Positions 18,063-36,623 of a stretch of DNA of 64,000 nucleotides are shown one piece after another. The translations under genes were made by a program, and so were the position numbers. The DNA comes from Neobacillus cucumis (GTDB taxonomy: Bacteria > Bacillota > Bacilli > Bacillales_B > DSM-18226), in the NCBI RefSeq assembly GCF_016107705.1, contig NZ_JAEHGC010000007.1, positions 62,001 to 126,000 on the forward strand, written 5' to 3'. How positions within the stretch are numbered: the stretch's first letter is position 1; the number at the start of each line of letters is the position of its first letter. The notes below the pieces were generated by a model. That model was not told where the DNA came from. It searched no databases and saw nothing but the letters and a program-made list of their open reading frames with translations.

Positions 18063-18410
18063 CTAAACCGAAGTTACTTCTTTTTGAAGTTTATCTGGCT
18101 TTCTTTTAATTACCTGCTTTGTCACCTCTTCATCCCAGGATAGGGAGACATCTCCGTTGGTTACAAAGGTTTGGCACCCAAGGCGGTAGCCTTTTTCAAG
18201 CCATTCTTCACCTAATTTTCTTTTTTCTTGAATTTTTACTTTATCCAGGTATTCTGCTCCTTCAATCGCTTTAAAAACACATGTTCCGCAAATTCCTCCG
18301 CCGCAACGGTTTGGAAGTTCTCCGTCATAGCGAAGAGACATTCTTAAAATATTCGAATTTTCCGGCACCTCTAATTGTTTATCATTGTTAACAAAATGAA
18401 TTTTCGGCAT
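18063..18410 (-). CDS. [2Fe-2S] ferredoxin (plant/adrenodoxin type)
   Basis: A 115-residue ferredoxin. The cluster cysteines are at 36, 41 and 44 (C-x4-C-x2-C in CGGGICGTC) with the fourth at 79. It should pass electrons to an oxygenase or redox enzyme in the cytosol. It follows the GntR gene in the same run as the diiron-type protein, and a second ferredoxin gene stands at the other end of that run. The two share the fold but not a close sequence, so they are not recent duplicates. Confidence 0.92.
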   Translation of the reverse strand: MPKIHFVNNDKQLEVPENSNILRMSLRYDGELPNRCGGGICGTCVFKAIEGAEYLDKVKIQEKRKLGEEWLEKGYRLGCQTFVTNGDVSLSWDEEVTKQVIKRKPDKLQKEVTSV

Positions 18411-18448: not shown

Positions 18449-19153
18449 TCATTTAGAGGGGATTTCCATTTTCCTTTTATTTAGCTTCTCTTTCCGGTTC
18501 TGTATATAGGTGATATACGCTTTTTTTGAGTTTTCGATATGAATTCTCATAAAATACTCTGCTAATTCTGTTTCTTGATTACGTAATGCTTTCATGATTT
18601 CAATATGTTCCCTTAGAGAATCTTTACGTCTCCCTGGTGTTTCGTATCCCATATTGGCAGCCATATGAATAAAATCAATCAAACTGGAAAGAATTTCAAA
18701 CAATTTTGGGCTTTTCGATGCTTTGTTGATAAGGCGATTCATTTGAATATGTTCAAGATTATAATTTTCTTCCGCTCCTGCTTCGAGTTCCATCAGTTCT
18801 TGGATTTTTTGATCAAGTTCTACTTTGGTATCCTCATCCATTTTTTCTGCGGCTAATTTGACAGCGAGAACTTCTAAAGAAGAAAGAATCGTAAACACTT
18901 CGATAACTTCATTTTCTGAAATATTGGAAACGACTACCCCTTTTCTGGGTACGGTTTTTACAAATCCTTGAGATTCCAAACGAAACAGAGCCTCTCGGAT
19001 TGGGGTGCGGCTAATATTCAGTTTCCCAGCGAGTTCTCTTTCAATCAACCGATCACCGGCTTTATATTCACCTTCAAGAATCATTTCTTTTAAGTATAAA
19101 TATGCATGTTCTCGTACTGATAAAAGATTGTTTTCCTCCCATCTAATATCCAT
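18449..19153 (-). CDS. GntR family regulator with FCD domain (first paralogue)
   Basis: A 234-residue GntR/FadR-type regulator. The winged helix-turn-helix (ERELAGKLNISRTPIREALF) is followed by an all-helical FCD ligand-binding domain. Its DNA-binding region is almost the same as that of the second GntR protein at 30950-31627, so both probably read the same GTATAC boxes. It is embedded in the run after the ChrA pair. No box was found directly upstream of it, so it is probably expressed from the upstream promoters of the regulon. Confidence 0.93.
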   Translation of the reverse strand: MDIRWEENNLLSVREHAYLYLKEMILEGEYKAGDRLIERELAGKLNISRTPIREALFRLESQGFVKTVPRKGVVVSNISENEVIEVFTILSSLEVLAVKLAAEKMDEDTKVELDQKIQELMELEAGAEENYNLEHIQMNRLINKASKSPKLFEILSSLIDFIHMAANMGYETPGRRKDSLREHIEIMKALRNQETELAEYFMRIHIENSKKAYITYIQNRKEKLNKRKMEIPSK

Positions 19154-19199: not shown

Positions 19200-19730
19200 T
19201 TATGATAAAAATACCCCGCCATAGATCAGCGCTCCAAGAATCAGTAATGATGGATGGAGCTTAATTTTAATTAAGGCGAAATAGCTCACTACAGCTAACA
19301 AAACTAAATGAAAAACCCCGCTTTTTTCAAAAGCCGTTAAGAAAAATTGATAAGCCATTACACCTAGCAAGATAGCGATAATGGGCTGTACAGACTTGGT
19401 CATAAGCTTGACTCTTGCGTTATCTTTAAATAAATTTACAAATTTAAACAAGATTATTACAGCTATAGCAGAGGGAAGGATTGTAGCTGCCAGCCCAATA
19501 ATTGCGCCAATCGGACCACCCACTTGATAGCCGATAAACCCGCCAATTTTGGTTGCAATTGGACCAGGCAGGGCATTCGCAATCGCTAATATATTCCCAA
19601 ATTCGGATGCTGACATCCAATGATAATGATTAACGACTTCATTTTGGTATAATGGAATTGTAGCAGGACCGCCCCCATAGCCCAGTAAATTCGAAATTAA
19701 AAATGCCCAAAAAATATGCAAATAGATCAT
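19200..19730 (-). CDS. Chromate transporter family protein (ChrA half, second of pair)
   Basis: A 176-residue half-size ChrA protein with about five to six spans and the signature GYGGGPATIPLYQNEVV. Half-size ChrA proteins occur as gene pairs that act as a heterodimer. Chromate efflux is the tested activity of the family, but here the genes sit inside a catabolic-looking cluster, so another anion may be the substrate. Its ATG overlaps the preceding stop (ATGA), so the two are translationally coupled. Confidence 0.9.
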   Translation of the reverse strand: MIYLHIFWAFLISNLLGYGGGPATIPLYQNEVVNHYHWMSASEFGNILAIANALPGPIATKIGGFIGYQVGGPIGAIIGLAATILPSAIAVIILFKFVNLFKDNARVKLMTKSVQPIIAILLGVMAYQFFLTAFEKSGVFHLVLLAVVSYFALIKIKLHPSLLILGALIYGGVFLS

Positions 19731-20323
19731 GAACTTTTTTCCTTTCTTTTAACAACAACTTCGGCCTGTTTGGCGGCAGCTTTTTCTTTACGGTCTGCAA
19801 TAATAAAGGCAGTAATTAGAAAAATAGCAATTAAGATTCCTGGATGTAATCCTAGGAACTGGACTACGATTAATGATAGGACAGATAGGCTTACCATTTT
19901 CGATAAACCAAGTCCTTTTCGACCATTTTGGAAAAACCGGTAAGCCATTTCCGCGAGCATAAATCCAATTACAGGCGTAACCCCTTGCACCATTCCACTC
20001 ACAATCGGGGAATTCCGAAACGAATAAAGTGCAGTTAATAAGGCTAACATTGCAATGATTGATGGCAGGATATGAGCAAGAATGGCCACGGTTGCTCCTA
20101 ATGTACCCTTCACTTTAAATCCAATATAGGCCGCCATTTTTGTCGCAATTGGCCCTGGCAATGTATTGGCCATCGCCAAAATCTCGGAAAATTCTTCTTC
20201 AGATGTCCAATGATATTTTTTGACCGCTTCATATTCAATCAACGGAATTGTAGAGGGCCCGCCCCCGTAGCCTGTTACACCAGTGCGGGCAAACCCAATC
20301 GCTAAATCAACATACGGTTTCAC
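19727..20323 (-). CDS. Chromate transporter family protein (ChrA half, first of pair)
   Basis: Half-size ChrA protein with the signature GYGGGPSTIPLIEYEAV. The longest frame begins at 20401 and would add 26 residues that do not look like the family. A GTG at 20323 follows AAAGGGG at good distance and starts directly before the family region, so I prefer it (about 198 residues). It is followed with a four-base overlap by its partner. Confidence 0.85.
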   Translation of the reverse strand: MKPYVDLAIGFARTGVTGYGGGPSTIPLIEYEAVKKYHWTSEEEFSEILAMANTLPGPIATKMAAYIGFKVKGTLGATVAILAHILPSIIAMLALLTALYSFRNSPIVSGMVQGVTPVIGFMLAEMAYRFFQNGRKGLGLSKMVSLSVLSLIVVQFLGLHPGILIAIFLITAFIIADRKEKAAAKQAEVVVKRKEKSS

Positions 20324-20431
20324 ATGTGTATCCCCTTTCTTCAACCAAACATCTATTTCTTTGATAACAATCCCTTCCGGTTGAATGAACATGGGCCTCA
20401 TTCTGTCTAAGCTTTTAATTGAATGAGCTCA

Positions 20432-20934: not shown

Positions 20935-22398
20935 TTAATAACCGATATATACCGTTTTCAATTGTGTAAAGAATTCAAGACCCACTCTTCCAGATTCACG
21001 GAATGTTGAAGTGCTTGATTTTTTCAAACCACCAAAAGGCGCATTCATTAAATTACCAGTCGTCGTCCGATTTACTTTTACCGTTCCGGCTTGAATATCT
21101 TTGGTAAATTGGTTGGCAATCTTCAGATTATTGGTCACGATGGAAGCAGATAATCCGTACTCAACATCATTGGCAACAGCAATGGCCTCTTCATATGTAT
21201 CCACTTCAATAATGGCCACGACAGGTCCAAAGATTTCTTCTTTAGCAATTCGATGGTTTGGCTTTACATTTGTAAAAATGGCTGGTCTTACAAAGTAGCC
21301 TTTTTCGTAATCGCCTGTTGTTAATGCCTCACCGCCATAAACCAATTCGGCACCATCTTCTTTACCAAACTCGATATACTTTAAAACATTTTTCATTTGT
21401 TTTTCGTTTGCAAGTGGTCCTATTTTTACACCTGCTTCAAAACCATTTCCGATTTTTAGGGCACTGGTCTTTTCGACAAGCTTTTGAATATAATCCTCTA
21501 TTACTTCCTTCATTACAATGACCCTGCTCGTTCCGGTACAAGCCTGCCCTGTTAGAGAGAAACCACCATTAACGGTCAGGGTTGCAGCTAAATCAAGGTT
21601 AGCATCATCCATGACAATTAATGGGTTTTTCCCACCAAGTTCCATCTGCGTTCGTGTTGTAATAGCAGCTTTACGATGAATGTCTTCACCGGCTGCAGTT
21701 GAGCCTGTAAACGTGACAGCCCTTACGGACGGATGGGTTACCAATCGGTCACCAATGTCACTTGCCTTGCCCGTTACGAAATTAATAACACCTTTTGGTA
21801 TGCCTGCTTCGTAAAGTGCTTCAACAAGGCGTACGGCAATGAGTGGTGTATCAGAAGAAGGCTTAAAAACCACCGTATTACCTGTGATTAAAGCGGGAGC
21901 GATTTTTCGGGCAGGAATCGATAGAGGAAAGTTCCAAGGAGTTATGACGCTCACCACTCCAAGCGGTTCTCTTTCCGTGGATACCTTCATATTTGGATCA
22001 TCGTTTGGAAATGTTTCACCTGTAAAACTTTGCCCCTCAACAGCATAGTATCGGAGTGTTTGAGCAGAGCGTAACACTTCATTCTTAGCATCAGTAACAT
22101 GTTTACCTTCTTCACGGGTTAACTCTTCAGCTAACTGATCAGCTTTTTGCTCTAGAATACTTGCTGCTTGATTTAAAATGGCAGCTCGTTTGGATGGCGC
22201 TGTTTTAGCCCAACCTGTGAATGCTTTTTGGGCAGCTTCAATGGCTAAATTTACGTCATCTTCATTGGAAGCCTGGAAAACCCCGACTACTTCTTCTTTA
22301 TTGGCAGGATTTAAACTATTAAACGTTTTTTTGCTTACCGATTCCTGCCAAATCCCATCTATATAGTTATTAAATGTTTTCACTTTTGTAGTTATCAC
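20935..22398 (-). CDS. Aldehyde dehydrogenase (NAD(P)+)
   Basis: An ALDH superfamily enzyme of about 487 residues that oxidises an aldehyde to an acid. The oxyanion/cofactor segment VITPWNFPLSIP, the general base in MELGGKNP and the catalytic Cys in GQACTGTSR are present. The ATG of the longest frame lies upstream of AAAGGTGATC, which is itself a Shine-Dalgarno sequence, so the GTG at 22398 is the likely start. It resembles semialdehyde dehydrogenases of the YcbD/2,5-dioxovalerate type. In the cluster it may oxidise the aldehyde product of the diiron-type protein upstream (inference). Confidence 0.93.
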   Translation of the reverse strand: MITTKVKTFNNYIDGIWQESVSKKTFNSLNPANKEEVVGVFQASNEDDVNLAIEAAQKAFTGWAKTAPSKRAAILNQAASILEQKADQLAEELTREEGKHVTDAKNEVLRSAQTLRYYAVEGQSFTGETFPNDDPNMKVSTEREPLGVVSVITPWNFPLSIPARKIAPALITGNTVVFKPSSDTPLIAVRLVEALYEAGIPKGVINFVTGKASDIGDRLVTHPSVRAVTFTGSTAAGEDIHRKAAITTRTQMELGGKNPLIVMDDANLDLAATLTVNGGFSLTGQACTGTSRVIVMKEVIEDYIQKLVEKTSALKIGNGFEAGVKIGPLANEKQMKNVLKYIEFGKEDGAELVYGGEALTTGDYEKGYFVRPAIFTNVKPNHRIAKEEIFGPVVAIIEVDTYEEAIAVANDVEYGLSASIVTNNLKIANQFTKDIQAGTVKVNRTTTGNLMNAPFGGLKKSSTSTFRESGRVGLEFFTQLKTVYIGY

Positions 22399-22445
22399 TA
22401 CGATCACCTTTTTCATTTATTTAATTAAAACTTTCTAATAAAAGC

Positions 22446-23323: not shown

Positions 23324-23340
23324 ATTTTGTATACCAAAAT
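23324..23340. promoter_or_regulatory. GTATAC box, proximal site of diiron-protein gene
   Basis: ATTTTGTATACCAAAAT, close to a perfect dyad, about 65 bases upstream of the diiron-protein start. Candidate GntR/FCD operator. Confidence 0.7.
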
Positions 23341-23397
23341 TCGATAAAAAAATAAATTTTACTAGTTTTTTACCGTTTCCACTGTGGTAATAGTGTA

Positions 23398-23410
23398 TTT
23401 GGTATACCTT
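23398..23410. promoter_or_regulatory. GTATAC box, distal site of diiron-protein gene
   Basis: TTTGGTATACCTT. Its centre is exactly 73 bp from that of the proximal box. Confidence 0.65.
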
Positions 23411-23502
23411 GATTTAATAGTAACCGATAAACGACTACTTGTAAACACAATTTTTAGAATTTTTTAAAGATTAGTATAAAATAATATTTTGCCTTATCTC
23501 TA

Positions 23503-24273
23503 TTAAGAATGGACATCCACATGGATGTTTAATAATTTAAAGAGCTCTCCTGAAAGATTATCCAGGGACTCCTCTACGATCTCACGGCCTATTGCAAAAC
23601 TGGCTTTTGTTGCATCCCCAATACATCCATTTTTGGTCATTTCCTCATAACGATAAAACCCTTGTATTGCTTGGCCAGGTCTTAGCTGCTTCCATCTGCC
23701 TTCTTCCTGTATATCTCCTTTTTCTAGTTGTTCAAGACGCACCATATCTGGCGCTAAATATAATGCTTCCGATACTTCACGTTCACAGCTGTGACCAAAT
23801 AATCTTGAACCAATATTGTTTTGAATGGAGTTTTTTGCAGATGCAGTGGTTTTTGCATAGTAAACTTCTACATCTAGTTCATTCGTTATGGTTAGTGATG
23901 CAACATTAAGTGTAGATTGGTTTCCTCCATGTGAATTTAATAATAAGAACTTGTTAATTCCATGATGCTTCAAAGAGGAGATCATATCTTTTAAAATCGC
24001 AATGAGTGTGGATGGCTTCAGTGAAATGGTTCCGGGAAAATTCATATGATGTTCCGAAACACCCATATTCACCGTTGGCGTAACCACCGCATAAGGAAAC
24101 ATCCTCTCACCAAGCCGCTTTGCCATCTTTTCAGCTAAAACAGCATCACAGCTTTCCACCATATGGGGTCCATGCTGTTCATGGGCACCGACAGGAATTA
24201 TTGCAACTTGAACACTTTTTAATGCTTCTTCAACCTCTTTCCATGTCATCCTGGTTAAATCATAACACTCCAT
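23503..24273 (-). CDS. Creatininase family amidohydrolase
   Basis: A 256-residue creatininase-superfamily enzyme. The metal motif PVGAHEQHGPH provides E32 and H34, D43 lies in the following segment, and NSHGGN gives a later His. The family hydrolyses cyclic or linear C-N bonds: creatinine, the F420 precursor (ArfB) and the mycofactocin peptide (MftE) are known cases. AAGGAG precedes the ATG. It has its own GTATAC box and lies between a ferredoxin gene and the diiron-protein gene. A ring- or amide-opening step on a nitrogen compound is plausible (inference). Confidence 0.9.
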   Translation of the reverse strand: MECYDLTRMTWKEVEEALKSVQVAIIPVGAHEQHGPHMVESCDAVLAEKMAKRLGERMFPYAVVTPTVNMGVSEHHMNFPGTISLKPSTLIAILKDMISSLKHHGINKFLLLNSHGGNQSTLNVASLTITNELDVEVYYAKTTASAKNSIQNNIGSRLFGHSCEREVSEALYLAPDMVRLEQLEKGDIQEEGRWKQLRPGQAIQGFYRYEEMTKNGCIGDATKASFAIGREIVEESLDNLSGELFKLLNIHVDVHS

Positions 24274-24300
24274 CTCAACTCTCCTTTGAGCATTAATGTA

Positions 24301-24313
24301 TTTTGTATACCAT
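24301..24313. promoter_or_regulatory. GTATAC box upstream of creatininase-family gene
   Basis: TTTTGTATACCAT, about 34 bases upstream of the creatininase-family start. Candidate GntR/FCD operator. Confidence 0.65.
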
Positions 24314-24340
24314 TTAATTAACTAAAAAAATAACCATCAA

Positions 24341-24670
24341 TTAATTTTGAATAGCTGATTGTTTTTTAGGAGCCTGGACTGAAATATTTTCTTGAGAAAT
24401 TTCAATATCCCGCTGGATCGTTAATTGGCAAGTTAAACGGTACCCCTCGTTCACTTTATCTCCAAGCATTTTTACTTCTTTCCAATTCGGCGGTGCTAAA
24501 TCTTCTGCCCCGTTAATCACCTGACATGTACACTTTGTACAACGCCCCATTCCACAGCCATATTTTAACTTTGGTAAAAGACGTGTTGCTGCTAAAACGA
24601 CCAAGTTTGCATTATCTTTCACTTCTTGCTCTACTGTAGTTCCATCAACATGCAAGATAACTTTCGGCAT
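24341..24670 (-). CDS. [2Fe-2S] ferredoxin
   Basis: A 109-residue plant-type ferredoxin with cluster cysteines at 39, 44, 47 and 81 (CGMGRCTKC and later CQ). AAAGGGG precedes the ATG. It is the first gene on the minus strand of the divergent promoter region that also serves the 111-residue protein. Electron donor to the diiron-type protein is the natural guess. No ferredoxin reductase gene is visible in the window. Confidence 0.92.
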   Translation of the reverse strand: MPKVILHVDGTTVEQEVKDNANLVVLAATRLLPKLKYGCGMGRCTKCTCQVINGAEDLAPPNWKEVKMLGDKVNEGYRLTCQLTIQRDIEISQENISVQAPKKQSAIQN

Positions 24671-25002
24671 AAAATTGCCCCTTTCTGTTTTTTCTAAAAA
24701 TTTTGATACTTTTCTGAAGTATACAACCTTTCTAATAGATAAGTAAACTAAAAAATTTTCTTTTTTGGTCGTTTCAAAGTCTCTTTATCTGTGTTTTCCT
24801 CTATAAATCTATCTTCCTGACTCTTTTTACGAATTAATTATTTAAATATTTAGAATATACAGTTGAATAATTTAACTCTATGGTATAAAATACAAACTAA
24901 GTAATTTTGGTATACAATGTTCCGAGGAGGTGTTTGGACTTTTAACTACTCTCCAATATGTAAGCGTTTGAAATATGTTGATTCATTTAAAGGAGTGAAA
25001 AA
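24671..25002. other. Divergent regulatory region (ferredoxin / 111-residue protein)
   Basis: No gene is seen. It holds one GTATAC box (24905-24918), weaker TATAC-like sequences near 24855 and 24883, and a cre-like sequence TGTAAGCGTTTGAA (24959-24972) close to the plus-strand gene. Confidence 0.6.
24905..24918. promoter_or_regulatory. GTATAC box in divergent ferredoxin / orphan gene region
   Basis: TTTTGGTATACAAT, about 90 bases before the plus-strand start. Candidate GntR/FCD operator that may serve both directions. Confidence 0.65.
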
Positions 25003-25338
25003 ATGGGAAAATATATTGTATTAACGAATAAAGATACCTTTCAAACAAGTCTCGAGAACGATGGGCTAGAACCTGTAGAAACCTACCATTTCTATTTCTT
25101 TGATAAATTAAAGGCAAAGTATACGATTGCAAAAGTATTAGATGAAAAAATTAAGATTAAGTTATTCGAAGAATTTGAAGGAAAAGAATATGTAAACCAT
25201 ATTGGTGTAAAGTTTTTTGAAAGGTTTGAAACAATTGAAGCAGCACGCGAGGAATTAAACGAGATCGTAAAAGCCTCCGGTAACAGTGTGGATTCTGTAA
25301 ACTCTAAACTTGTAAAATCAAGTGAAGTTGCAGTATAG
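25003..25338 (+). CDS. Hypothetical protein, 111 residues
   Basis: I do not recognise this protein. It is soluble, mixed alpha/beta in appearance and rich in Lys, Glu, Phe and Tyr (for example YHFYFFDKLKAKYTIAKVL), with a C-terminal helix and a Ser/Val-rich tail. A strong AAAGGAGTG precedes the ATG and a clean terminator follows, so it is a real single-gene unit. It is divergent from the ferredoxin gene across a GTATAC box and so probably belongs to the same regulon. A small subunit or chaperone of the redox system is possible but is only inferred from position. Confidence 0.8.
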   Translation: MGKYIVLTNKDTFQTSLENDGLEPVETYHFYFFDKLKAKYTIAKVLDEKIKIKLFEEFEGKEYVNHIGVKFFERFETIEAAREELNEIVKASGNSVDSVNSKLVKSSEVAV

Positions 25339-25359
25339 ACATTTTATAAAGGCTTACAG

Positions 25360-25390
25360 CCGGAGAGATGGCAACGTCTCTCCGGTTTTT
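25360..25390 (+). terminator. Rho-independent terminator of 111-residue gene
   Basis: Stem CCGGAGAGA / TCTCTCCGG followed by TTTTT. Confidence 0.9.
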
Positions 25391-25417
25391 GCATTATATG
25401 ATACAAACGCAAAAAAA

Positions 25418-25444
25418 CCGCCACTGCTGCTATGTGACGGTTCA
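25418..25444 (-). terminator. Rho-independent terminator of small-protein gene
   Basis: Hairpin with arms CCGCCAC / GTGACGG (one G-U pair), followed by a run of T on the minus strand. Confidence 0.7.
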
Positions 25445-25456
25445 CCAATAAAAATT

Positions 25457-25543
25457 TTAAAACTTAAGTGTTTTTCTCAATGATGCTAATTTTCTCTCGG
25501 CTTTTTCAGCCGCTTTCTTGGAATTAAATAAAAAATTTAGCAT
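25457..25543 (-). CDS. Putative 28-residue small protein
   Basis: A very short reading frame encoding a basic, amphipathic peptide that begins MLNFLFNSKKAAEKAE and ends in RKTLKF. AGGGGG lies seven bases before the ATG. Downstream on the minus strand is a hairpin with arms CCGTCAC / GTGGCGG (25420-25442) followed by seven Ts, which looks like its own terminator. A GTATAC box stands about 78 bases upstream of the start, close to the distance seen for the diiron-protein gene. The signals on both sides support a real small gene in the regulon. The function is unknown. Confidence 0.55.
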   Translation of the reverse strand: MLNFLFNSKKAAEKAERKLASLRKTLKF

Positions 25544-25613
25544 GTTAGTTCCCCCTGTTTTGTAGGTTATTTGTTAGTTTTATTTTATATTGGAAATTAA
25601 ATAAACTCAAGAG

Positions 25614-25627
25614 TTTTGTATACCAAA
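25614..25627. promoter_or_regulatory. GTATAC box between small-protein and permease genes (site 1)
   Basis: TTTTGTATACCAAA, about 78 bases upstream of the 28-residue frame. Confidence 0.7.
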
Positions 25628-25685
25628 TACCAAAAATTTAAGTAATTATGGCGGATTTGTGACTTAATCTTTATGGAATTCGAAG

Positions 25686-25699
25686 ATTTGGTATACAAT
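25686..25699. promoter_or_regulatory. GTATAC box between small-protein and permease genes (site 2)
   Basis: ATTTGGTATACAAT, about 70 bases upstream of the permease start. Its centre is exactly 73 bp from site 1, the same spacing as at the diiron-protein gene. Confidence 0.7.
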
Positions 25700-25762
25700 C
25701 AATATCTTTTTTAGGTACTCATTTATCGAATTATTACATTTCCTTATAGATAGGGTGTTGGT

Positions 25763-27145
25763 ATGCTCAGATATCTGCTTTTCTTTGTGATCGTCTTGTA
25801 CTTAATTTCAGTGCTTCAGCCCCACTTGCATATTGGATTTCTTTTATCCAGCTTGTGCCTTGTTATTGTATTCTGCACGTTTTTTCAAGCCAAACGTTTT
25901 GTGCAAATATTAGGTAGTACGTTTTTAATCCTTGGTGTATTTTTACTTGCTTCGAACGGAGCCCATTGGAAGCAATATATCCTTTCCTTCGGTCCAATGC
26001 TGGATTTGCTCACGATGTTTACCCTTATTCCGATTTTAGGAATTCCGATCAAAATTGGCGGATACAGCGGGGGGATACAAACCATTATTCAAAAAAGTGT
26101 AAAGAGTTCTGGACAATTATATATGATTACTTCGGGGATTTCTTACTTTTTCAGTATTTTTATGAATCTTGCAACATTGCCAATGACTTATTTCTCGATC
26201 AGACCTGCACTCGGACTGTATACGGTGAATAACAAAGAGCGGTTCATGAGCAGGGCAATTACAAGGGGCTTTGCGATGCCATTAATTTGGGCACCGGTTA
26301 CACCGATTGTCGGAATTGTAATTACGATGACGGGAGTTACTTGGGTATCCATACTTCCTTATGTTATACCATTAAGTATTATCGGAATGGGACTTGATTG
26401 GTTCATAGGTGCACGAAAATCTAAAAGAATGCTTCAAACTCAAAATAATGTGACAGTGAATGAATTAGCAGTAACGGTTGAATCCGGTCATATCAATCGT
26501 TCTGGAAGAGTCTTTCAAATTTTATTGGCCATCATCATTTTCAATGTCGTGATTTCGCTAGTTGAAACTAGGTTTCCTTATCCGTTTTTGATTCTTATTT
26601 CTTTATTGGTTATCCCATTTGCCCTTACATGGTCTTTATTTTTGAAGCAAGGAAAAGAGTTTGGTGTTCAATTGCTAAATCATTTCCAATCTTTTTCCGT
26701 TAGTATGAAAGATCAATTCTTTATATTTTTATCAACTGGATTTTTCATCTCTGCCATCAATGTATCGCACACAAATGAGCTGCTATATGGCTGGGTCATG
26801 AAATTTATTCACCTAGCTGGTGTTGAAGTTTTCTTGATTTTGCTTCCCTTTGTTCCTTTAGCGATGGCTTTTCTAGGGTTGCACCCGGCTGTCTCGCTTG
26901 CTTTAATGATTGAAGGGTTAAATCCACAAGCAATGGGGATTTCACCTCACATCTTAACCGTTGCGATGTTAGCGGGGGCTGTTTCTTCCTTTTTAGTTGG
27001 TCCATATAATGCAACTTTAGGACTGATGTCCAATATCGTAAAGGAAAGCTCTTATAAAGTATCAAATTGGAATCTTTCCTTCGCAGCCCTTTACATTGGA
27101 ATTGTGATGGCGTATTTGTTCTTACTTGAATTATTGCTGAATTAA
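25763..27145 (+). CDS. Uncharacterised permease, about 12 membrane spans
   Basis: A 460-residue integral membrane protein with about twelve spans and a central hydrophilic loop near residues 210-245. Segments such as LGLHPAVSLALMIEGLNPQ and AGAVSSFLVGPYNATLGLMS are reminiscent of ion-transporter (IT) superfamily carriers for organic acids, but I cannot name a family. AGGGTG precedes the ATG. Two GTATAC boxes lie upstream, so it is probably the importer of the substrate of the GntR regulon (inference). Confidence 0.8.
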   Translation: MLRYLLFFVIVLYLISVLQPHLHIGFLLSSLCLVIVFCTFFQAKRFVQILGSTFLILGVFLLASNGAHWKQYILSFGPMLDLLTMFTLIPILGIPIKIGGYSGGIQTIIQKSVKSSGQLYMITSGISYFFSIFMNLATLPMTYFSIRPALGLYTVNNKERFMSRAITRGFAMPLIWAPVTPIVGIVITMTGVTWVSILPYVIPLSIIGMGLDWFIGARKSKRMLQTQNNVTVNELAVTVESGHINRSGRVFQILLAIIIFNVVISLVETRFPYPFLILISLLVIPFALTWSLFLKQGKEFGVQLLNHFQSFSVSMKDQFFIFLSTGFFISAINVSHTNELLYGWVMKFIHLAGVEVFLILLPFVPLAMAFLGLHPAVSLALMIEGLNPQAMGISPHILTVAMLAGAVSSFLVGPYNATLGLMSNIVKESSYKVSNWNLSFAALYIGIVMAYLFLLELLLN

Positions 27146-27151
27146 ATAAAG

Positions 27152-27184
27152 AAAAGGTGCCAATCTGCTAGATTGACACTTTTT
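27152..27184. terminator. Bidirectional rho-independent terminator
   Basis: Hairpin GTGCCAATCT / AGATTGACAC with one mismatch, flanked by A-rich and T-rich tracts on both sides. It serves the converging permease and dehydrogenase genes. Confidence 0.8.
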
Positions 27185-27188
27185 CTTT

Positions 27189-27884
27189 TTAAAGCTCTTT
27201 CTTAGGTTTCTGTTTAATTTCTTTGACGATTTCCTGTGCGAAATGTCCTAAACTACCCTCACAATATCCCCTAATTACTTCAGGGGTAATAGAAATTAGA
27301 GCTCTTTTAACATATTCAGTGGAGTATCCCCTATTTTCAAACTCCCTCTCTAATTCTACCGCCGTTTTGACAGCATAATAGGTTGCTAATTTGTTGATCT
27401 CGGTCAAATGGCTTTCCTTCTCTATTTTTACCTGCCCAAGGCGTTGATAGAGTTCCTCAACGGGCTTCTGCAGAGTATTTTCAGTAATGAATAAACCATT
27501 GCCGTGCTCCATTAAATCCTTCCAGTGCCCCATAAACTTAACCCCAGCAATGTTTAATGCAGGATACTTTGCTTTTATTTCTTTCGTATCTAAGGACGTT
27601 GCCATATTAATGATCGTGACAGTAGGAAGTAAATTACCTTTATGCTTTAAATTTGTAATAAATGGAATAATAGTCGCTGCTGGTAAAGCTAAAATTAACA
27701 CATCTAATTCCTTTAATTCTTGTTCTATTACTATATACCCGTTTGGAAACTGCTCCACAAACTGTTCAGCCTTAGTTTTTAAAGGATGGTACACCCCGAT
27801 CTTCATATTCATTTTATTCCAATGCGTCATCATCGCGGTCCCTAATTTACCAAGTCCTACAAGCCCCACTTTAACTTGTTCCAT
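27189..27884 (-). CDS. NAD(P)-binding dehydrogenase, 6-phosphogluconate-dehydrogenase-like / ProC-like
   Basis: About 231 residues. The N-terminus has a clear Rossmann motif (VGLVGLGKLGTAMM), then ALPAAT, as in pyrroline-5-carboxylate reductase or 6PGDH-like enzymes. A helical C-terminal domain follows. The ATG at 27884 lies after GGGGGATC, so the earlier ATG at 27899 is unlikely. The true reaction is unknown. It is encoded between two permeases of the regulon and may reduce an imine or ketone intermediate. No GTATAC box is directly upstream. Confidence 0.8.
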   Translation of the reverse strand: MEQVKVGLVGLGKLGTAMMTHWNKMNMKIGVYHPLKTKAEQFVEQFPNGYIVIEQELKELDVLILALPAATIIPFITNLKHKGNLLPTVTIINMATSLDTKEIKAKYPALNIAGVKFMGHWKDLMEHGNGLFITENTLQKPVEELYQRLGQVKIEKESHLTEINKLATYYAVKTAVELEREFENRGYSTEYVKRALISITPEVIRGYCEGSLGHFAQEIVKEIKQKPKKEL

Positions 27885-27917
27885 CGATCGATCCCCCATT
27901 TCAAACCATAATGAAAA

Positions 27918-27957
27918 AAAGGAGTTCCCAAAGGTTATAGCAGCTTTGGAAAACCCC
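27918..27957 (-). terminator. Terminator of second permease gene
   Basis: Imperfect hairpin GGGGTTTTCCAAAG / CTTTGGGAACTCC followed on the minus strand by a run of seven Ts. Confidence 0.65.
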
Positions 27958-28014
27958 TAATTCTAAAATTATATTTTCTACTTTACTAAGAAATTCGCAA
28001 ACTTGAACACACTT

Positions 28015-29463
28015 TTACCAAATAAACACGGCTAGTATCGTTGCAAGCAGAAGCCCGGAAACGACTGGGACGAAGTTTTTCCTGGCCAATTCCAACGGAG
28101 AAACTTGCAAGAACCCGGCTACAGCTACAAGAGATGACCAGGCAATCAACGTTCCACCACCGCTCCAGACCGAACCCATTTGTCCAATCGCCGCCATAAC
28201 AGCAGGATCAATGTGACTTCCAGGCGCAATGGCTCCAGACAACGCACCCGTTAACGGTAGCCCTGCAAACCCTGAACCATCCAATCCCGTAATGATACCA
28301 ACAATTAATATACTGATTGCTGCAAAAAATGGACTATGTGGGATATAATTTTGCCCTGCTTGGATTAAATCAAATAGAAAGGCAGGCTTTGCTGCGGTAT
28401 CACCTAATGATAGGATAGCACCCGAAAAATCCCCGCTTCCCATGAAAAAGTATCCAGCAATTGGAATTACCGGTGCCATTGCCTTAAAGGCAAAAACAAA
28501 TCCTTCAGTGATATGTTCGCTAATTTTATCAAGGGCATGAATTCGGTTGAAGGCAATGGTCGCTAGCACTAATAGAATAGTCGCAACTCCACCAATAAAC
28601 GCTGCTCCGTCGCCCCCTTCAAATCCTGAACCGCCGCCAATTTTAGTTTGGAACATAAAAATCATAACACCGAGCATTGCCAAAGGAACAATAATAGCAA
28701 ATAATCTTCCCCATGTTTCTTTTCTTTTGATAAGGTCTGGACTTTCTTCTGCCGTAGCAGCAAGCTCATTGGCCACATCAAAGAAAGCTTTTTCTTCATT
28801 ATTTAAGCTATTTGCTGACCCGGATCTTTTCGTAATTGCTTTTCGAGATCTCACATAGACAATGGCTAAGGAGGTTATCCCTGTAATAAGAGAAAGAATG
28901 AATGCCTTATCTGAAACTGCGGATTTATCAATTCCCGCTGCTTTCGCACTAAGCATTGGTGCTACTTGCATAATATAATCTGAAGAAAGCGCCATACCTT
29001 GTCCAGCAATGACAATGACCATTGCGGATGTCATGACAGGCAACCCTGCACTCACGGCTGCTGGAACCAATAATGCACAAATTAATGGAACTGCGGGTGT
29101 TGGCCAGAAAAAGAGAGAAATTACATAAGTAGTGACCATTAAAACGATAAAAGAGATATGTCCGTTTACCATTATTTTTTGAATTGGTACTACCATCCTT
29201 TTATCCGCTCCAAGATCCTTCAACGAATTAAGAAGACCAATCATGATGGAAATAATCAGGAAAATACTGAATAGCTCCTTTGCGGCAACTAGATTTGCAT
29301 TAAAGACCGCTTGAAACCCTGCAATAAGACTCCCTTTATATACTGCTGCGACTAAAAAGGTCCCAATAATAAGAGGTAAAACAACACCTTTTCTAAATAG
29401 CATAATCACAATGACAGCTGCAGTTACAACTAGATAAACCCAGTGAGCTAATGTTAATTCCAT
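28015..29463 (-). CDS. Uncharacterised permease, ion-transporter-superfamily-like
   Basis: A 482-residue membrane protein with about 12 spans and a hydrophilic loop near residues 215-255. Features such as FFWPTPAVPLICALLVPAAV and GLDGSGFAGLPLTGALSGA suggest an IT-superfamily carrier for organic anions. No family name can be given with confidence. It starts at the long divergent region that also drives the aspartate-dehydrogenase-like gene and carries GTATAC-type boxes. It is a second candidate transporter for the regulon. Confidence 0.8.
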   Translation of the reverse strand: MELTLAHWVYLVVTAAVIVIMLFRKGVVLPLIIGTFLVAAVYKGSLIAGFQAVFNANLVAAKELFSIFLIISIMIGLLNSLKDLGADKRMVVPIQKIMVNGHISFIVLMVTTYVISLFFWPTPAVPLICALLVPAAVSAGLPVMTSAMVIVIAGQGMALSSDYIMQVAPMLSAKAAGIDKSAVSDKAFILSLITGITSLAIVYVRSRKAITKRSGSANSLNNEEKAFFDVANELAATAEESPDLIKRKETWGRLFAIIVPLAMLGVMIFMFQTKIGGGSGFEGGDGAAFIGGVATILLVLATIAFNRIHALDKISEHITEGFVFAFKAMAPVIPIAGYFFMGSGDFSGAILSLGDTAAKPAFLFDLIQAGQNYIPHSPFFAAISILIVGIITGLDGSGFAGLPLTGALSGAIAPGSHIDPAVMAAIGQMGSVWSGGGTLIAWSSLVAVAGFLQVSPLELARKNFVPVVSGLLLATILAVFIW

Positions 29464-29675
29464 ATCTTTCCTCCGTTGCTTTATAAGATATTAATCGAAT
29501 TAATCTTGCAAGGTTTTCATAGCATTTGGCTTTTAAGCGAAGAAATATAGATTTTCAATCAAAAGAATGTTCAATCAAATTTTCTTTGCTTAACTTAACT
29601 ATTCAGTTTTGTACATGGCAGTAAAAAATGTTATCTTGAAATTCTAATGGGTTTTTTGCACTTTGTGGATTGTGG

Positions 29676-29687
29676 ATTGTATACCAT
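29676..29687. promoter_or_regulatory. GTATAC box in permease / AspDH-like region
   Basis: ATTGTATACCAT, a half-degenerate copy of the regulon box about 213 bases upstream of the permease start. Confidence 0.5.
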
Positions 29688-30008
29688 GATGTTAAAAAAA
29701 TAATAATGAAAAGCCAATTTTTTTGTGATCATTCCTTACATGCTTGGTTTATTACAATAAGTCAATTAAACTCGCTTATTGTAAGCCCTTTCAATTATAC
29801 AACGGAGACTAATCCAAATTTTCCTACTTTATGTACCCTCCTTTCACATTTTCACTATATAGAGCTTGCAAACTATATAGAATGAATTTAATATACCATT
29901 AAAAGAGGTTAAATAGCAAATTATTTCGAAAATTTAGATGTTTTTTTATTTTCATAATTATCTCTTGCTTTTAAAAGGCTAATTCGATAAAATGAAACAA
30001 AGCTTTTA

Positions 30009-30023
30009 GGTATACGGTATACC
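30009..30023. promoter_or_regulatory. Doubled GTATAC box upstream of AspDH-like gene
   Basis: GGTATACGGTATACC, in which two GTATAC cores stand 7 bp apart in tandem. It lies about 50 bases before the start of the AspDH-like gene. Confidence 0.65.
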
Positions 30024-30071
30024 ATAAATAGAATCAAAAAAATTTAATAAAGTTATTGAGGTGATAAAAAG

Positions 30072-30878
30072 ATGCTTAAAGCTGGGATCATCGGTTATGG
30101 TACTCTTGGCAAAGCGATTAGTGATTTAATCGTTTCCAATCAAGCAGGCGAAGTTGATGTCAAATCGATTCTTGTTAGAAGGAAGCTTGGTTTAAACGAA
30201 TCTATTCCGCAAAATTGCGTGGTCACGACCGACGAAAATCTGTTTTTTAATCAAGATTTGGATATTATTATTGAAGCGGCGGGTCATAAAGCGCTACAGC
30301 TTTACGGGGAAAAGGCCCTTTCCACTGGGAGTAATTTGATCGTCCTCTCTGTCGGAGCTTTCGCAGATCATGAATTTTATGAAACACTAAAAGCTACTGC
30401 AAAAAAATGTAATAAGCAAATTATCCTTCCTTCTGCCGCCATTGCTGGCTTAGACCGAATAGCTGCTGGGGTATTGGGGGATATAGAAGAAATAAGCCTT
30501 ATCACGAGGAAACAGCCAAAAAGCTGGTATGGAACGATTGCTGAGGAAAAAGTAGATTTAGAGACAATCTCTGAGCCTTATTGTATATATGAAGGTAATG
30601 CTAGGAATGCTGCAAAATTATTCCCTGAAAACGTGAATGTATCTGCCGCATTAAGTATTGCTGGGGTTGGTTTCGAAAAAACAAAAGTTCAAGTATTTGT
30701 CGACCCAACCATTCAGGCAAATTTCCACACCATATTAGCAAGGGGCTTTTTTGGTCAGGTTGAAATAAAAGTACAAAATACGCCTTTTAAACAAAATCCT
30801 AAATCTAGTCCAATTGTAGCAATGAGTGTAGCAAAAGTGTTAAGAAACCTAACAGAATCCGTTATGGTTGGCCTTTAA
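30072..30878 (+). CDS. L-aspartate dehydrogenase family protein
   Basis: A 268-residue NAD(P)-dependent enzyme of the aspartate dehydrogenase family (EC 1.4.1.21 type). It has the Rossmann motif IIGYGTLGKAI and the family segments PSAAIAGLDRIAA, EGNARNAAKLFPENVNVSAA and FHTILARGFFGQVEI. These enzymes interconvert aspartate and iminosuccinate/oxaloacetate. In several bacteria relatives act in catabolic routes rather than NAD synthesis, and no nadA or nadC gene is nearby here. It probably handles an amino or imino acid formed in the GntR regulon (inference). Confidence 0.88.
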   Translation: MLKAGIIGYGTLGKAISDLIVSNQAGEVDVKSILVRRKLGLNESIPQNCVVTTDENLFFNQDLDIIIEAAGHKALQLYGEKALSTGSNLIVLSVGAFADHEFYETLKATAKKCNKQIILPSAAIAGLDRIAAGVLGDIEEISLITRKQPKSWYGTIAEEKVDLETISEPYCIYEGNARNAAKLFPENVNVSAALSIAGVGFEKTKVQVFVDPTIQANFHTILARGFFGQVEIKVQNTPFKQNPKSSPIVAMSVAKVLRNLTESVMVGL

Positions 30879-30905
30879 TCTATCCAGTAGGATCCTATAA
30901 AAAAA

Positions 30906-30946
30906 GTTGTCCAAAAGTCTTTCTTATCCTGGACTTTTTGGACAAC
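30906..30946. terminator. Bidirectional terminator between AspDH-like and GntR genes
   Basis: Hairpin GTTGTCCAAAAGTC / GACTTTTTGGACAAC with flanking A- and T-rich tracts. Confidence 0.8.
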
Positions 30947-30949
30947 CTT

Positions 30950-31627
30950 TTACCCTTTCCTTTTTTCCTTGCTTTGATTAACCGCTTCTATATACGCCTT
31001 TTTTGAATTTTCTATATGGATTTTTGTCAAATATTCAGTCATTTCGCTCTCTTGATTCATAATCGCTTCCATAATTTTAACATGTTCTTCCATCGATTGT
31101 ACGGCCCTTCCTGGATTTTTATAACCAATTTTGGCGAAAGCACGAATATAATCAGATAAACCGCTCAGTATTTCTTGAAGTTTAGAATTTTTAGCAGCAC
31201 TATATAAGAGTTGATTGTATTCCCCATGTAAATCAGAAAAAGCCTCTTCATTGTCTAAGCACTCTTCTACCTTTTTTATATAGGAAGAGATTTTGCTTTT
31301 TATTTCTTCGTCTAACTTTTGAACAGCCAATTTTGCTGCTAAAACTTCAAGAGAAGAAAGAATCGTAAAAACTTCAATAATTTCCTTCTCAGAAATGTCT
31401 GCAACAATTACCCCTTTTCTCGGTACAGTTTTTACAAACCCTTGTGACTCCAATCGAAATAAAGCTTCACGAATAGGCGTTCTACTGATATTTAATCTGT
31501 CAGCTAGCTCCCTTTCCACCAGCCGATCACCGGTTTTAAATTCACCTTCTAAAATGAGGTCTTTTATGTGTAAATAGACCCTTTCTCTTAAGGATATTAA
31601 ATCTTCCGCCGCCCAATTAGTACTCAT
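30950..31627 (-). CDS. GntR family regulator with FCD domain (second paralogue)
   Basis: A GntR/FadR-type regulator of about 225 residues. Its helix-turn-helix (ERELADRLNISRTPIREALF) and the following segment through EVFTILSSLEVLA nearly match the first paralogue. The longest frame starts at 31696, but the ATG at 31627 follows GGAGGAG, and a GTATAC box (31647-31660) lies between the two positions, so the shorter start is right. The box just upstream points to autoregulation. The FCD domain probably binds a carboxylate effector, often with a metal ion. Confidence 0.93.
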   Translation of the reverse strand: MSTNWAAEDLISLRERVYLHIKDLILEGEFKTGDRLVERELADRLNISRTPIREALFRLESQGFVKTVPRKGVIVADISEKEIIEVFTILSSLEVLAAKLAVQKLDEEIKSKISSYIKKVEECLDNEEAFSDLHGEYNQLLYSAAKNSKLQEILSGLSDYIRAFAKIGYKNPGRAVQSMEEHVKIMEAIMNQESEMTEYLTKIHIENSKKAYIEAVNQSKEKRKG

Positions 31628-31646
31628 TAGATCTCCTCCCTTCAAC

Positions 31647-31660
31647 TTTTTGTATACATT
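31647..31660. promoter_or_regulatory. GTATAC box upstream of second GntR gene
   Basis: TTTTTGTATACATT, about 20 bases upstream of the ATG. It probably overlaps the promoter or the transcript start, as expected for autorepression. Confidence 0.65.
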
Positions 31661-31777
31661 AAACCAATTATACTGTACCAGATTAAAAAACATCAAATGA
31701 TATGGTTCAAATTACCACTAAAATATTTGAATTTTCCATTTACAAATAATTGTAATTATGCAGTTAATCCTCGTAAT

Positions 31778-36050: not shown

Positions 36051-36623
36051 ATGGATAAGGATATCTTAACGGCTCAAATAGGCCAGCGGTTGCGGTACTT
36101 CCGGCAGCAACGGAAATTAACTTTGGACGAGCTGGCTGACTTGACTGGAGTTAGTAAACCAATGCTTGGTCAAATTGAGCGTGGAGCCTCTAACCCAACT
36201 GTTTCGATTCTTTGGAAAATTGCTGCAGGCCTGCAAATTCCTTTCGCATCCTTCTTAGCAATGAATCCTTCTGTTAAAATGATTCGGCTGGCTGAACAGC
36301 CTTTTTTCAAAGAGGATAATGACTTATATGAGGTTTATAATACATTTGCATCACCAGGTATACCAATTGAAAGTTACCGTGTCCGTCTACATCCAGACTG
36401 TAGACACTTTACCGAACCGAACGGGATTGGTGCCATTAAATCGATTACAGTCCATTCCGGGACCTTCACTATTACTATTGGTGATGAAGATCATTATTCA
36501 TTGGATCAAGGAGACTCCGTCTCTTTTTCAACCGATGTATATCAGATTTTTGAAAATAGAGAAAAAGAAATTTGTGAAATTAGCGTGGTCATTTACTATT
36601 CCAGTCCAAACATCCAACTTTAA
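36051..36623 (+). CDS. XRE family regulator with C-terminal cupin domain
   Basis: A 190-residue regulator. The N-terminal HTH (LTLDELADLTGVSKPMLGQI) is followed by a cupin domain near residues 110-185. Such proteins often sense amino acids or related small molecules. AAAGGGG precedes the ATG and a TATAAT -10 lies near 36000. It is divergent from the aminotransferase gene and followed closely by a gene of unknown function. Confidence 0.92.
   Translation: MDKDILTAQIGQRLRYFRQQRKLTLDELADLTGVSKPMLGQIERGASNPTVSILWKIAAGLQIPFASFLAMNPSVKMIRLAEQPFFKEDNDLYEVYNTFASPGIPIESYRVRLHPDCRHFTEPNGIGAIKSITVHSGTFTITIGDEDHYSLDQGDSVSFSTDVYQIFENREKEICEISVVIYYSSPNIQL

Follow-up and report, generated by a model that had tools for sequence, protein, structure and literature searches.

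We analysed a window of 64,000 nucleotides from Neobacillus cucumis (contig NZ_JAEHGC010000007.1, positions 62,001 to 126,000 of the forward strand), in which a gene cluster around a heme-oxygenase-like diiron oxygenase (PF14518; 22535..23266, minus strand) carries recurrent boxes of the form TTKGTATACMAA, with a GTATAC core, in its intergenic regions. Two boxes precede the oxygenase gene, box 1 at 23325..23338 (TTTTGTATACCAAA, centre 65 bp 5' of the start codon) and box 2 at 23398..23411, 73 bp from box 1. The gene for a creatininase-family amidohydrolase (PF02633; 23503..24273, minus strand) has a box at 24301..24314, its centre 34 bp 5' of the start codon. Between the gene for a 2Fe-2S ferredoxin, ferredoxin-1 (PF00111; 24341..24670, minus strand), and that for a 111-residue protein of no known family (25003..25338, plus strand) lie a weak box at 24715..24728, 51 bp 5' of the ferredoxin-1 gene, and a box at 24906..24919, 90 bp 5' of the 111-residue gene. 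A mini open reading frame (mini-ORF) for a 28-residue protein (MLNFLFNSKKAAEKAERKLASLRKTLKF; 25457..25543, minus strand) stands opposite the gene of permease-1, which has no Pfam family (25763..27145, plus strand), and this divergent pair is separated by boxes at 25614..25627 and 25687..25700, again 73 bp apart. Beyond the gene for an NAD-binding dehydrogenase-like protein (27189..27899, minus strand) lies that of permease-2 (28015..29463, minus strand), with a weak box at 29675..29688, 218 bp 5' of it. The gene for an aspartate-dehydrogenase-like (AspDH-like) protein (PF01958; 30072..30878, plus strand) is preceded by two overlapping cores at 30006 and 30013 (GTATACGGTATAC, 30006..30026). The last box, at 31648..31661, belongs to the regulator gene GntR-2 (winged helix plus FCD; 30950..31627, minus strand), whose start is more likely the ATG at 31627, with its GGAGG, than the TTG at 31696; the box lies just 3' of a TTGATG-18-TATAAT promoter-like pair and 5' of the GGAGG. 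A first-pass annotation had described the boxes as a candidate regulon of at least eight transcription units read by twin GntR/FCD regulators. All the boxes that it listed are present in the window where it had placed them, and our scan added the weak box at 24715.

The abundance of the boxes was compared with chance using 1,000 dinucleotide shuffles of the 2,170 intergenic bases of the 22.4-31.8 kb region. GTATAC occurs there 11 times, whereas the shuffles averaged 0.30 copies and never exceeded 3. The 14-mers that agree with WTTKGTATACMAAW in at least 12 of their 14 positions numbered 6, as compared to 0.70 in shuffled sequence (maximum 5), and those that agree in at least 11 numbered 14, as compared to 5.5 (P 0.001); at 10 or more of 14 the same bases gave no excess (27 and 28.6). 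This intergenic test was made because the test over the whole window, allowing up to 3 mismatches, was empty (36 matches against 29 expected, a value reached by 16 of 100 shuffles). Similarly, bare GTATAC was not enriched over the whole window (18 copies against about 21 expected). The box signal is one of clustering in promoters, rather than of window-wide frequency. The seven copies of GTATAC beyond the 11 intergenic ones are all inside ORFs, including the five outside the 23-31.7 kb region (3161, 35131, 36358, 48158 and 50302), which bears out the earlier remark that intergenic DNA elsewhere lacks the core. Twelve places in the window score 12 or more, six being cluster boxes and six lying elsewhere (724, 7729, 35127, 40568, 44682 and 54109); among the latter, only 35127 holds the exact core, within an ORF, and places 724 and 54109 are outside the listed ORFs.

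Conservation of the boxes was determined at the best 80 loci of 449 candidates obtained by scanning genome contigs with the oxygenase protein, 71 of them of Bacillales type (by title; L047 is titled Chryseobacterium) and nine from Burkholderiales, with gene order mapped by tblastn. A good box was defined as a site with at least 12 of 14 matches not more than 250 bp upstream, the motif read backwards served as control, and rows with a short upstream stretch or gene coverage below 70% were dropped. At the Bacillales loci, a good box was found before the oxygenase gene in 71/71 cases (control 15), the creatininase-like gene in 59/71 (control 1), the 111-residue gene in 65/69 (control 3), permease-1 in 60/68 (control 8), ferredoxin-1 in 45/70 (control 1), the AspDH-like gene in 36/52 (control 3) and permease-2 in 21/70 (control 0). 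The NAD-binding protein gene had one in only 3/32 (control 0), the gene of an aldehyde dehydrogenase downstream of the oxygenase gene (20935..22416, minus strand) in 4/71 (control 0) and that of an HbpS-like protein (PF03928; 20432..20911, minus strand) in 0/71 (control 0); the latter two are probably inside the oxygenase operon. Good boxes were also found at 7/65 loci (control 1) before the first ChrA-like gene, one of two for small membrane proteins that resemble chromate-transporter halves (19200..20401, minus strand; named by eye, not by profile search), and at 4/26 (control 1) before the gene after GntR-2. A RidA-like gene (at least 48% identity) lies near in 15 Bacillales loci and is boxed in 2.

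A second 2Fe-2S ferredoxin gene, encoding the 115-residue ferredoxin-2 (18063..18410, minus strand), had been missed by the first-pass annotation. It has a good box in 60/70 loci (control 7), the window being among the ten without, where it may be co-transcribed. An earlier count at another threshold gave 598 boxes in the 71 loci, 48 inside mapped genes and 74 unassigned, many of which stand before the second ferredoxin gene. Thus, of the proposed regulon of at least eight units, the listed boxes are real, and the regulon as a whole is somewhat larger than had been proposed.

Boxes of this type stand before the same genes beyond Bacillales too, from relatives of Bacillus as far as Cupriavidus. 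The Burkholderiales set comprised 12 loci (60-68% G+C), several of them closely related to each other, the nine from the locus scan plus three taken from six suitable records of plasmids or megaplasmids. Since the box flanks differ at these loci, the core alone was counted. GTATAC occurs 72 times, compared to 23.4 expected from base composition, an expectation that ignores A+T-rich promoters. Within 220 bp upstream, the core was found before the oxygenase gene in 12/12 loci, permease-2 in 12/12 and GntR in 10/12, and before the ferredoxin gene in 3/12, aldehyde dehydrogenase in 3/12 and HbpS in 0/12. The Burkholderiales GntR is only about 30% identical to those of the window. Core and regulator thus appear, on the strength of position, to have been kept together across phyla while details drifted; alternatively, the cluster as a whole may have been transferred from one phylum to another. 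No plasmid match was obtained with 7 kb of the window DNA as query.

A whole-genome scan had been suggested as a check on the regulon, and it was run on relatives. In the nearest genome (G001), WTKGTATACMAW occurs at 14 places (reversed control 8). Six of these lie within 6.4 kb of the cluster, and the 8 others each overlap an ORF of 70 or more codons. Scans of nine more genomes gave 44 occurrences of TTKGTATACMAA, of which 23 lie no more than about 5.5 kb from the oxygenase gene, the cluster share per genome ranging from 1/4 (G052) to 2/2 (G012, G053). The strict box outside the cluster is at background level, with 21 places as compared to 28 for the reversed control; of these 21, 15 were inspected, and 10 lie in an ORF of at least 100 codons and 5 do not. 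At strict box stringency, therefore, these nine genomes gave no sign of a wider regulon. The degenerate form TWKGTATACMWA was found at 2 places, none in the cluster (control 4), in the four genomes behind loci L113, L115, L117 and L120.

GntR-2 matches the GntR winged-helix and FCD domain profiles (PF00392, 1e-19; PF07729, 4.4e-18), and its paralogue GntR-1 (18449..19153, minus strand), whose gene lies just before that of ferredoxin-2, aligns with it over the whole length. The two share one recognition helix sequence; identity is 77% over the winged-helix domain and 51% over the FCD part. Three conserved histidines, the metal-binding ones of the FCD domain, are described for relatives in the available text of PMC7797058; at the position of the histidine present in Burkholderiales (FH), both window paralogues have Asn, and two later histidines are kept. 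Among 60 related genomes, 18 have the oxygenase (87-99% identity), and in another 7 the homologues are all at about 25%. A close GntR/FCD protein (E <=1e-40; in some genomes among at most 49 scored candidates) was found in 18/18 oxygenase genomes, as compared to 2/42 others (G003, G009). Two GntR copies are present in 14 of the 18 oxygenase genomes and one in the remaining 4. Of the 80 fetched loci, 79 have a full-length GntR, and the one without (L077) is a 10-kb contig. Two copies occur in 31 loci, including the window, and one in 49, in part because some loci stop short; copy counts from such loci are lower bounds. Within the fetched stretch, 30 of the 71 Bacillales loci have both regulators, 32 only GntR-1, 8 only GntR-2 and 1 none. 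A tree of 111 GntR sequences separates a GntR-1 group (62; support 0.76) from a GntR-2 group (37; support 0.61), both values being modest, and the other sequences lie outside; L115, counted among the loci with GntR-2 only, branches outside both.

The two genomes with a close GntR and no close oxygenase were also inspected. In L157 (G003), GntR-2 and its box stand beside aminotransferase and NCS1-type genes, without the cluster, and in L158 (G009) GntR-2 lies without a close oxygenase next to a 128-residue AspDH-like ORF; in both, the cluster seems to have been lost or to be absent. In two genomes the GntR-2 frame has one internal stop (G008:C50:113-778, at a contig edge, and G024:C34:392203-392871), the second GntR copy being intact.

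With promoters predicted by consensus, the boxes of the window overlap or trail promoter-like pairs. Proximal box centres in relatives lie 34-130 bp before the oxygenase gene (within 86 bp in 53 of 55 non-redundant cases), 31-117 bp before the creatininase-like gene and 32-182 bp before the 111-residue gene, and TACCAAA-like half-sites often trail the oxygenase box. Half-sites 7-12 bases from the centre are described for FadR-subfamily sites in the available part of PMC4494728. Column conservation of the promoter-box alignment is biased, because the motif was used to choose the sites. The spacing values in relatives, for the oxygenase and permease-1 genes, form clusters near 62, 73, 84 and 107 bp. 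The helical phase is strong on raw values, and a jitter test on relatedness-collapsed values gave P <0.001 for each of three genes.

The proposal of a GTATAC regulon under FCD-type GntR control is well supported by conservation of position, by co-occurrence and by the published motif of the family. It is highly probable that the boxes are genuine operators of a type already described, and their most likely readers are one or two related repressors from a well-known protein family. We consider it quite probable that they are the operators of a local repressor regulon bound by FCD-type GntR protein; the regulon is probably local and catabolic, and its reading by both paralogues is plausible. Several observations weigh against this interpretation. 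The self-boxes of the regulators are weakly conserved, at 11/62 for GntR-1 and 6/37 for GntR-2 (control 0 for each); the proposed autoregulation of GntR-2, whose own box is present in the window, is poorly reflected in relatives. No box variant was found that separates the two paralogues. The overlapping double core before the AspDH-like gene of the window is unusual and unexplained. At 11 of 14 matches the reversed control is high (oxygenase 71 vs 56 of 71, AspDH-like gene 49 vs 29 of 52), so that only the threshold of at least 12 of 14 is informative. One spacing class of permease-1, near 97-101 bp, is out of phase, and on a tree only 15 of 29 large spacing changes fall near a multiple of 10.5 bp, where chance gives about 0.34. 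Looping is left as a suggestion, because the phase test is supportive on raw and collapsed values and weak on the tree.

Could the boxes be read by one GntR only, the other having a different target or merely modulating? The single copy in four of the oxygenase genomes, the Bacillales loci that carry GntR-1 or GntR-2 alone, and the internal stop in the best GntR-2 match of G008 and G024 beside an intact second copy all favour this, but the same boxes accompany each GntR type when alone, the recognition helices are identical and the single-paralogue counts come from loci of limited length, so we regard it as possible but doubtful. Another variant, in which the regulators activate from upstream boxes and repress at proximal ones only, would account for box pairs with a distal copy at about -140; it appears unlikely, because promoter-like pairs coincide with, or lie immediately before, the proximal oxygenase box and the GntR-2 box, an arrangement that fits repression. 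Most described relatives of these regulators are repressors, and this was also counted against activation.

The remaining explanations do without a GntR operator. GTATAC might be a conserved extended -10 promoter element (TGGTATACA), as TATACA in the box makes a fair -10 hexamer, several promoters have TG in front of it and, in the window, TTTATT lies 17 bp upstream of the oxygenase box. However, each arm of the palindrome recurs, further copies are found upstream, the distance from box to start varies, the strict box is rare in the genomes scanned, and in relatives no TTGACA-like hexamer 17 bp upstream was found among the best offsets, which makes this very improbable. Very improbable too is a reader other than the GntR proteins, for which the window offers an XRE-type regulator gene at 36051, 13 kb away: a close relative of it was found in 2 of the 60 related genomes and in 1 of the 18 with the oxygenase (G001), against 18/18 for GntR, and the box motif is of the GntR/FadR type as given in the available text of PMC4494728. 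The XRE gene was dropped as box reader on this co-occurrence in genomes, the fetched 10-kb loci stopping short of the gene.

The oxygenase itself has the CADD-type 4-aminobenzoate synthases as its nearest solved relatives, and like them it keeps the same six metal-ligand positions: E87, H94, E150, H181, D185 and H188 align with all six metal positions of CADD. Genes that travel with it encode the aldehyde dehydrogenase, the HbpS-like protein, both ferredoxins, the 111-residue protein and permease-2. Unlike CADD, it is set among catabolic-looking genes, and Thr29 occupies the position of the self-sacrificed tyrosine, Tyr27 of CADD. Assignment as a self-sacrificing 4-aminobenzoate synthase is not supported, TIGR04305 giving 93.9 bits against a cut-off of 200 and the tyrosine position being Thr29. 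In the available text of an oxygenase-family review (PMC13108848), 'catabol' appears once, for heme.

Permease-2 has no Pfam family and no NCBIfam name in sequence and family searches. Its predicted fold is TRAP-M-, DASS- or ArsB-like: a fold search with the model gave 12 matches to these types (E up to 0.001, TM-scores about 0.4-0.6), a resemblance that hints at an organic anion. For the 111-residue protein, sequence and family searches found no family, and its AlphaFold2 model (mean pLDDT 82) had no significant fold match; its gene adjoins ferredoxin genes even in Cupriavidus. The Caballeronia neighbourhood contains a ferredoxin reductase, an ornithine-cyclodeaminase-family protein and an alpha/beta hydrolase. 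Flavoprotein reductase genes are found inside the clusters of some relatives (L110:12925-13911, L154:12860-13861) and are candidate electron donors for the ferredoxins. The mini-ORF is preceded by a strong ribosome-binding site and was found in 30 of the 80 relatives with a pattern built from the first examples. Among 28 equal-length members, differences at codon positions 1, 2 and 3, as pair sums over pairs that are not independent, came to 1,980, 1,096 and 4,121; this bias marks a real small protein gene.

Starting from what is directly observed, namely the boxes, their conservation, their restriction to the cluster and their co-occurrence with the regulators, we infer a scheme of binding, repression, ligand response, operator sharing and looping. 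A dimer of FCD-type GntR would recognise the palindrome and occupy the core promoters, or the DNA immediately behind them, of the genes for oxygenase, hydrolase, ferredoxin, transporter and dehydrogenase. RNA polymerase would be blocked until an organic-anion nutrient or a breakdown intermediate binds the FCD domain, and paired operators, 73 bp apart in the window, may permit cooperative binding or looping. GntR-1 and GntR-2 probably share operators and answer different ligands, because their DNA-reading surface is the same and the sensor half has diverged. Our fullest version of this scheme is tentative: two paralogous sensors might integrate two metabolites on shared, phased, looping operators and so control an undescribed aerobic pathway. 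This pathway would be built on a diiron oxygenase with a pair of ferredoxins, an orphan partner of 111 residues and a microprotein of 28 residues made opposite a permease, and regulator and operator would have accompanied the oxygenase from Bacillota to Burkholderiales.

The analysis gives a clear and testable operator map for a widespread, uncharacterised oxygenase cluster. Whatever relieves the boxes is probably a substrate or an intermediate, so that the pathway could be traced with a reporter screen. The two paralogues offer a natural example of a pair of sensors on a single operator set, and either paralogue can be studied alone because other genomes have only one. What makes the system interesting is its uncharacterised oxygenase pathway, together with the pair of paralogues and the microprotein; among the matches listed in literature searches, whose coverage mostly leaves out subscription journals, there was no paper describing this gene set.

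Comparison with known systems places the boxes in a familiar class. According to the available part of PMC4494728, FadR-subfamily sites are TKGT/ACMA palindromes in which 2 or 3 bases separate GT from AC, and the boxes fit this consensus. The sites of UxuR, HypR, MdcY, PrpR, HpxS and GntR, of 2-base spacing, are likewise TKGT-2-ACMA palindromes; these proteins serve other pathways, and the gene set of the window is not mentioned in that part of the text (PMC4494728). NanR of E. coli is another repressor of the FCD-type GntR kind, whose operator has GGTATA elements and takes up several dimers, as far as described in the available text of PMC8012715, but its sites are direct repeats and not palindromes (PMC4494728, in part). 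A close parallel is Atu1419 of Agrobacterium fabrum (PF07729), and the sequence matches of GntR-2 include Atu1419 structures (6z74) and other VanR-group entries. In the available text of PMC7797058, this VanR-group FCD protein is a tetramer that binds ATGTATACAT, its sites lie over -10 boxes, and DNA looping is seen between sites 190 bp apart. Its pathway, the vanillate branch of hydroxycinnamate degradation, and its inducer are different from those of the window, its cluster has one such regulator and a MarR-type one in place of two GntR paralogues, and its palindrome is shorter with other flanks, on the same partial text. Nevertheless, both systems combine an FCD-type GntR with a GTATAC core, a site over the -10 box, several sites per catabolic cluster and paired sites, those of Atu1419 being 109 or 190 bp apart (PMC7797058).

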